Assembly: GCA_002716405.1 (NCBI GenBank)
Contig: PBBA01000006.1
Coordinates: forward strand, 134,142-187,965
Direction: 5' to 3'
Source: Chloroflexota bacterium
GTDB lineage: Bacteria > Chloroflexota > Dehalococcoidia > UBA2979
DNA length: 53,824 nt
Every line of letters begins with the position of its first letter. Positions within the stretch are counted from its first letter, which is position 1. Below are positions 41,134-41,676 of the stretch, one piece after another. The notes beneath the pieces were generated by a model. That model was not told the origin of the DNA, made no database searches, and worked only from the letters and a program-made list of their open reading frames with translations. A program made the position numbers and the translations under genes.

Positions 41134-41658
41134 CTAGGTTTCTATCAATTCTTCTAAAAGCAAGCGTAACCGTGACTCACTCTGGAATCCAAATGTTTGA
41201 TCACTTGCATCTTTTGGATCTTGATTAGCGCCAATAACTGCAAAAGCAGGGTGACCCGCAATTGACATTACAGAAGCAAGTTCTCTTTGTTCGGTGATCA
41301 TATAATCTAGTATGACAAAATTAATTCTATCTTGATATTCTATTCTTAGACTGTGAACCACAGGTCTCACTCTTGCACAAGACATTCACCAAATTGAATC
41401 AACGAAAACAACGGTAGGTTTCCCATTTCGAGGTATATATGCTCCTGTATTATCAACATAATCCTTCGGAATCTCATAAGTAGCGCTAACAATTACAGTA
41501 GGCAGAGCATCTTCCCCAACTGAAATATCTCCAGACTCATTCAATTTAGCATTAGTCCCATTTTCTGGACCTGAGCAGGATAAAAATAAAAAAGTAAACC
41601 CTAAAGAAAAAATGAATAACCATTTAAACTTGCTCAATATAATGTCTAAATATTTCAT
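41134..41658 (-). CDS. Candidate selenocysteine-containing thioredoxin-like lipoprotein (TGA read through)
   Basis: A single frame of 175 codons containing one internal TGA at 41388-41386. Read through, it gives 174 residues: an N-terminal hydrophobic segment (WLFIFSLGFTFLFLS) ending at a Cys, like a lipoprotein signal with an imperfect lipobox; a linker; then a thioredoxin fold. The strand PTVVFVDSIW is followed by Sec91-Met-Ser-Cys94, so the TGA is exactly the first Cys of CxxC. The helix ARVRPVVHSL, strand INFVILDY and the cis-proline segment AGHPAFAVIG complete the fold. TGA is a normal stop elsewhere here (khpA, enolase, sirtuin), so this is recoding, not a changed code. ATG 41658 is chosen because a TATAAT lies upstream at 41682-41677; a GTG at 41673 would fall too close. 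A point mutation or base error at a TGT/TGC codon is the alternative. Confidence 0.72.
41353..41370 (-). promoter_or_regulatory. Candidate bacterial SECIS hairpin
   Basis: On the coding strand GUGA-(g)-ACC, loop UGU, GGU-UCAC form seven pairs with one bulged G. The loop begins 23 nt after the UGA (16-37 nt is the published range for bacterial SECIS) and has G as its second base, as the general bacterial consensus asks. Three further pairs (AGA/UCU) can extend the base. Confidence 0.5.
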
Positions 41659-41676
41659 GTTTATAGAATACACAGG

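Follow-up and report, generated by a model that had tools for sequence, protein, structure and literature searches.

A probable lipid-anchored thioredoxin-like selenoprotein encoded across an in-frame UGA in Chloroflexota

Introduction

Several thioredoxin-like selenoproteins have been described in bacteria. Sec-containing thioredoxin (Trx, PF00085, UxxC) is listed among the experimentally verified selenoproteins (PMC13188914), and UxxC thioredoxin-like selenoproteins have been known since the studies of marine metagenomes (PMC1088965, PMC2398784). Besides these, the TlpA/ResA/CcmG and StoA oxidoreductases are thioredoxin folds tethered to the membrane outside the cytoplasm. Replacement of the first cysteine of the thioredoxin dyad by selenocysteine (Sec) provides a more reactive nucleophile.

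The locus analysed here lies in a stretch of 53,824 nucleotides of a Chloroflexota bacterium (assembly GCA_002716405.1, contig PBBA01000006.1), hereafter called the window. Like Sec-containing Trx, its product has the thioredoxin fold, the cis-Pro and U as the first redox residue. However, it begins with a signal peptide that probably carries a lipid anchor, has a conserved TGA-x-[IL]P-x-NG-x-PT amino acid stretch ahead of the fold, and scores only 29 bits with the NCBIfam TrxA equivalog TIGR01068 (cut-off 96.8). With TlpA/ResA/CcmG and StoA, it shares the tethered extracytoplasmic fold and, in two genomes, a TlpA-like gene is adjacent; it carries Sec in place of Cys, and remains far under the cut-offs of the StoA (20.1 vs 210 bits) and DsbE (13.9 vs 123) models. 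The window protein passes the cut-off of no NCBIfam model. A further likeness is to Trx-like 1-3 and GOS_C (PMC2398784) and to the thiol-disulfide isomerase-like family (PMC1088965), which have in common with it UxxC, a Trx-like fold, a bacterial SECIS and a marine origin. GOS_C (NF045500), SaoT (NF040730) and HUIPC (NF047660) are absent both from the matches of the window protein (E up to 1) and from the 25 families matched by most of 22 members. Trx-like 1-3 (PMC2398784) were compared by description and may overlap the family of the window protein.

A single gene read across a TGA

On the minus strand, a single frame is divided into two ORFs, 41673-41386 (95 aa) and 41385-41134 (83 aa), by nothing more than the TGA at 41388-41386. 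Read through, they give a product of 174 aa from the ATG at 41658, or of 179 aa from the GTG at 41673, whose junction reads ...VVFVDSIW-U-MSC.... The sequence-only reading had taken these ORFs for one gene split by TGA. This is confirmed, and the match of the Pfam Thioredoxin model PF00085 bridges the junction (32.7 bits, cut-off 23.5, E 8e-8). From the N-terminus, the product comprises a signal peptide closed by a Cys, then a linker, then a thioredoxin domain in which the TGA codon occupies the first redox position; the invariant cis-Pro (H-P) lies downstream of the UGA (Table 1). A single gene, its Sec codon, a SECIS element, the Sec machinery and a thioredoxin fold are all established computationally, and we put the probability that the UGA is decoded as Sec at roughly 0.87.

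Table 1. Features of the proposed selenoprotein gene (positions in the window)
Feature	Position	Strand	Details and basis
Proposed selenoprotein CDS	41134..41658	-	ATG start, TAG stop, 174 aa, Sec = residue 91; alternative start GTG 41673; homologues
Signal peptide ending in lipobox-like FLS-C (Cys28), probable lipid anchor	41575..41658	-	Sequence; counterparts in homologues
In-frame TGA, selenocysteine codon, first residue of U-x-x-C	41386..41388	-	Homologues: TGA 48, TGT/TGC 7
Resolving Cys codon (TGT) of U-M-S-C	41377..41379	-	Cys invariant in alignment A2
SECIS hairpin, core CUGUG-GUU-CACAG at 41363-41351	41349..41366	-	Loop 27 nt past UGA; lower GA/UC pairs, bulged C
Cis-Pro codon (H-P) of thioredoxin fold	41248..41250	-	P142 invariant in alignment A2
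Thioredoxin fold	41137..41436	-	AlphaFold block-mean pLDDT 92-98; Foldseek top matches are thioredoxins

An open frame across a TGA proves little by itself, since the window contains nine frames linked by a TGA with 50 codons or more on either side; judged by eye, the other eight resemble shadow frames. The present frame stands above chance because this codon is likewise TGA in 48 distinct homologues, whereas 7 of the 35 long ORFs of the window end normally at TGA. The sequence-only reading had counted TGA as an ordinary stop in at least four other genes.

The fold was predicted by AlphaFold for 22 relatives, Sec being entered as Cys. The block-mean pLDDT is about 92-98 over residues 80-179 and low ahead of residue 80. 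The best PDB structure matches (Foldseek) are thioredoxins, and searching the PDB by sequence gives thioredoxins and protein disulfide oxidoreductases. Fold, redox dyad and cis-Pro are all those of the thioredoxin fold superfamily. As for the membrane anchor that had been claimed from the sequence, a lipobox-like Cys follows the hydrophobic stretch in most homologues with a complete N-terminus (e.g., LAAC, AVAC or ALAC at the same place), which is the basis of this claim, but the F-L-S-C of the window protein is non-canonical. On its sequence, a lipid anchor is probable for this protein.

Homologues and exchange of selenocysteine and cysteine

A search of the whole class gave a match in 36 of 393 genomes, and searches of the phylum revealed further, more distant homologues; a plasmid search gave no match. 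After deduplication, the codon at the site is TGA in 48 homologues and TGT or TGC in seven, with no other residue among those collected. The proposal that the TGA occupies the first redox position of W-C-x-x-C, giving U-x-x-C, is therefore borne out by the relatives. Two of the seven Cys forms (L137 and L145) look like ordinary thioredoxins. The closest Cys/Sec pairs oppose L108 and L113 (VSDAIWCPKC, VTDAIWCPKC) to L105 and L107 (VSDAIWUPSC, VTDAIWUPNC); another close pairing is that of L112 and L132 with L134-L136. In the tree, some of the Cys forms are nested within Sec ones, which is the classical test of Sec/Cys exchange. At least five Sec/Cys changes are required by this tree, which is built on 98 columns only, with weak deep forks and an unrooted direction of change.

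The codons that follow the UGA evolve as those of a translated gene: the differences between the window and two genomes of the same genus fall mostly at third positions (8/4/23 and 11/10/25 for codon positions one, two and three). Nearly always, each gene has a single TGA, always at the nucleophile position. A shorter match to the tail of the gene in one genome (G007) has no TGA because it begins past the site.

Tandem pairs of Sec thioredoxin-like genes were observed in two genomes (G007:C125:7607-9067 and G364:C229:989-2122). Furthermore, in the class family f33 (L103 and L104), a paralogue adjoining the U-x-x-C gene has two TGAs, in a U-G-P-U motif, which suggests a thioredoxin-like protein with a double Sec, U-x-x-U.

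The SECIS hairpin

The bacterial bSECIS model has a loop of 3-9 nt with a G in the first two loop positions and a stem of 4-16 bp, located 16-37 nt after the UGA (PMC13188914). The window hairpin, with its 5-bp stem and its loop GUU 27 nt from the UGA, agrees with this model. Covariation was evaluated on a gap-free alignment of 32 distinct sequences, extended from an earlier set of 20, the UGA being columns 1-3. A six-pair stem (columns 24-29/35-40) is paired in 93% of cells and shows 19 double-sided changes, distributed over five of the six pairs. Whole stems are swapped, for example GCCCGU/ACGGGC, GCCUGU/ACAGGC, GCCUAC/GUAGGC and GCCCAU/AUGGGC. The covariation score is 0.384 vs 0.176 in shuffled alignments; none of 500 shuffles matches either the paired percentage or this score, and controls slid to other registers are at most 44% paired. 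Loop positions 2-3 are an invariant GU, shared by all 41 rows that follow this register. The family f33 has a different strong hairpin, three bases earlier (UCCGCCC-CGUGU-GGGCGGA).

The mean best bSECIS-like hairpin of the Sec forms is -8.8 kcal/mol vs -4.5 in shuffles that preserve the amino acids; for the Cys forms, the values are -1.6 and -2.4 kcal/mol. Taken individually, only 10 of the 48 Sec forms fall below 0.05 against synonymous shuffles. The window hairpin is not significant singly (z -0.04 in single-sequence folding; p 0.08 against synonymous shuffles) and is thus visible in the alignment only. In one homologue (L022), the simple model picks another, weak hairpin. The hairpin is largely lost in the Cys forms, of which L106 retains five of the six pairs. 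No Rfam family matches it.

Selenocysteine machinery

The presence of selA, selB, selC and selD had been proposed as a check of the sequence-only reading. The source genome is a 1.3 Mb draft, 84.5% complete. Its tRNA-Sec, with anticodon UCA (72.6 bits, cut-off 47), is carried by the contig of the window, and it also encodes selA (535.9 bits) and selB (327.5 bits), so that this part of the check is positive. The result for selD is mixed: it was not found in this draft, where the best match (42.5 bits vs a cut-off of 125) is probably a paralogue, whereas the two same-genus genomes each encode it (about 360 bits). In each of these, selD has one in-frame TGA (G001:C4:100288-101217 and G002:C33:5497-6426), so SelD is probably itself a selenoprotein in this genus. 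A tRNA-Sec has also been reported in a Dehalogenimonas (PMC5330540).

Among the 60 nearest genomes, 23 hold the UGA gene and 20 of these have selA, the three others being 73-83% complete. All 11 genomes that hold the UGA gene and are at least 90% complete have selA. Reciprocally, two genomes of the family that are nearly complete and have no selA (G004, 96%; G012, 97%) do not hold the UGA gene either.

Other readings of the TGA

A TGA inside a conserved domain usually marks a broken gene, and a single substitution turns a Cys codon into TGA. The window could thus hold a pseudogene or a sequencing error, a normal Cys codon having been lost or misread. However, 48 distinct homologues from many genera have TGA at the same codon, the codons after it vary mostly at third positions and the hairpin shows compensatory changes. 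Because independent genomes share this TGA, sequencing error is excluded without the need of reads and the pseudogene reading is refuted; its probability is negligible. Another possibility would be two translationally coupled genes, the TGA ending a short lipoprotein and the adjoining ATG starting a small thioredoxin half. Such an ATG directly follows the TGA in the window and in close relatives, but most homologues have a non-start codon there (CCG, GGA or GGT). Furthermore, according to the predicted fold, the first half would stop within the first strand and neither half would be a complete domain, which makes this arrangement extremely improbable. Variant decoding of UGA occurs in other bacteria, and the codon could be read as Cys or Trp owing to a variant tRNA or an altered genetic code. 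This is very improbable here, where TGA terminates 7 of the 35 long ORFs, a standard tRNA-Sec is encoded together with SelA and SelB, and each gene nearly always has only one TGA, always at the nucleophile. The pseudogene, two-gene and code-change readings were rejected on these grounds.

A proposed family of surface-anchored selenoproteins

The selenoprotein of the window belongs to a widespread and apparently unnamed family of probably lipid-anchored thioredoxin-like proteins, with the proviso that Trx-like 1-3 were compared by description only. No description of the family was found in the open-access literature on selenoproteins of SAR202 and Chloroflexota, where absence is not proof, and the open-access selenoproteome papers do not mention Chloroflexota in this context. 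Tentatively, and at slightly less than even odds, we propose an undescribed, phylum-wide Chloroflexota family of surface-anchored thioredoxin selenoproteins, in which Sec prevails, Cys forms arose several times from Sec with loss of the SECIS hairpin, and a U-x-x-U version exists. If this is true, abundant ocean bacteria would have selenium chemistry as a permanent component of their envelope redox. As gene callers for which UGA is nothing but a stop would cut this gene in two or omit it, a large marine lineage probably has an envelope redox protein that cannot be seen in databases. With these homologues, their hairpin and the naturally occurring Cys forms, it can be tested directly why an extracytoplasmic thioredoxin keeps Sec, and the physiology of uncultured Chloroflexota can be linked to the supply of selenium in the ocean.

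Putative function and redox partners

The protein is best read as a lipid-anchored, extracytoplasmic, Sec-containing thioredoxin-like thiol:disulfide oxidoreductase, for which we infer a redox role in the envelope, a substrate and an electron donor. SelB and Sec-tRNA(Sec), guided by the hairpin just 3' of the UGA, would insert Sec as the N-terminal nucleophile of U-x-x-C. The selenolate could then attack disulfides, or other oxidised sulfur or oxygen substrates, of exported proteins, form a mixed selenenylsulfide and be released by the neighbouring Cys. The resulting Se-S bond would be re-reduced by a membrane electron carrier, most likely of the CcdA/DsbD type. Since the domain is secreted and tethered, reduction of disulfides in exported proteins is its likely task.

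Sec also favours peroxide chemistry, and several genomes of the family have VKOR, a partner of disulfide-forming oxidases. The selenoprotein could therefore be mainly an oxidase or isomerase (DsbA/DsbC-like), or an enzyme repairing peroxide or methionine-sulfoxide damage, rather than a general disulfide reductase. However, VKOR is absent from the three genomes of the window's genus and the predicted fold has no DsbA-type helical insertion. Moreover, a TlpA/ResA-like gene is located about 390 bases upstream of the homologue, on the same strand, in two genomes, and both same-genus genomes have a CcdA-like gene (none was found in the 84.5% complete draft of the window), which suggests a reducing pathway. 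Altogether, these genes and the lack of VKOR in the genus favour the reductase, though they do not prove it. The oxidase or repair role is unlikely, if not negligibly so, and for the reducing direction taken alone we lean modestly in favour.

A search for an electron donor among the neighbours at 20 loci indicated no partner or substrate. The recurring neighbours at these loci, named by eye, are an M20-type peptidase, an EamA-type transporter, a CoA transferase and a dehydrogenase-like protein, a set that suggests old synteny rather than a redox operon. Near the G007 locus (L060 2537-6614), two CoA-transferase-like ORFs have identical starts, which reflects either a duplication or an assembly repeat. 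In addition, a VKOR homologue with one in-frame TGA was observed in another genome (G041:C216:25624-26001) and is possibly a Sec-containing VKOR.
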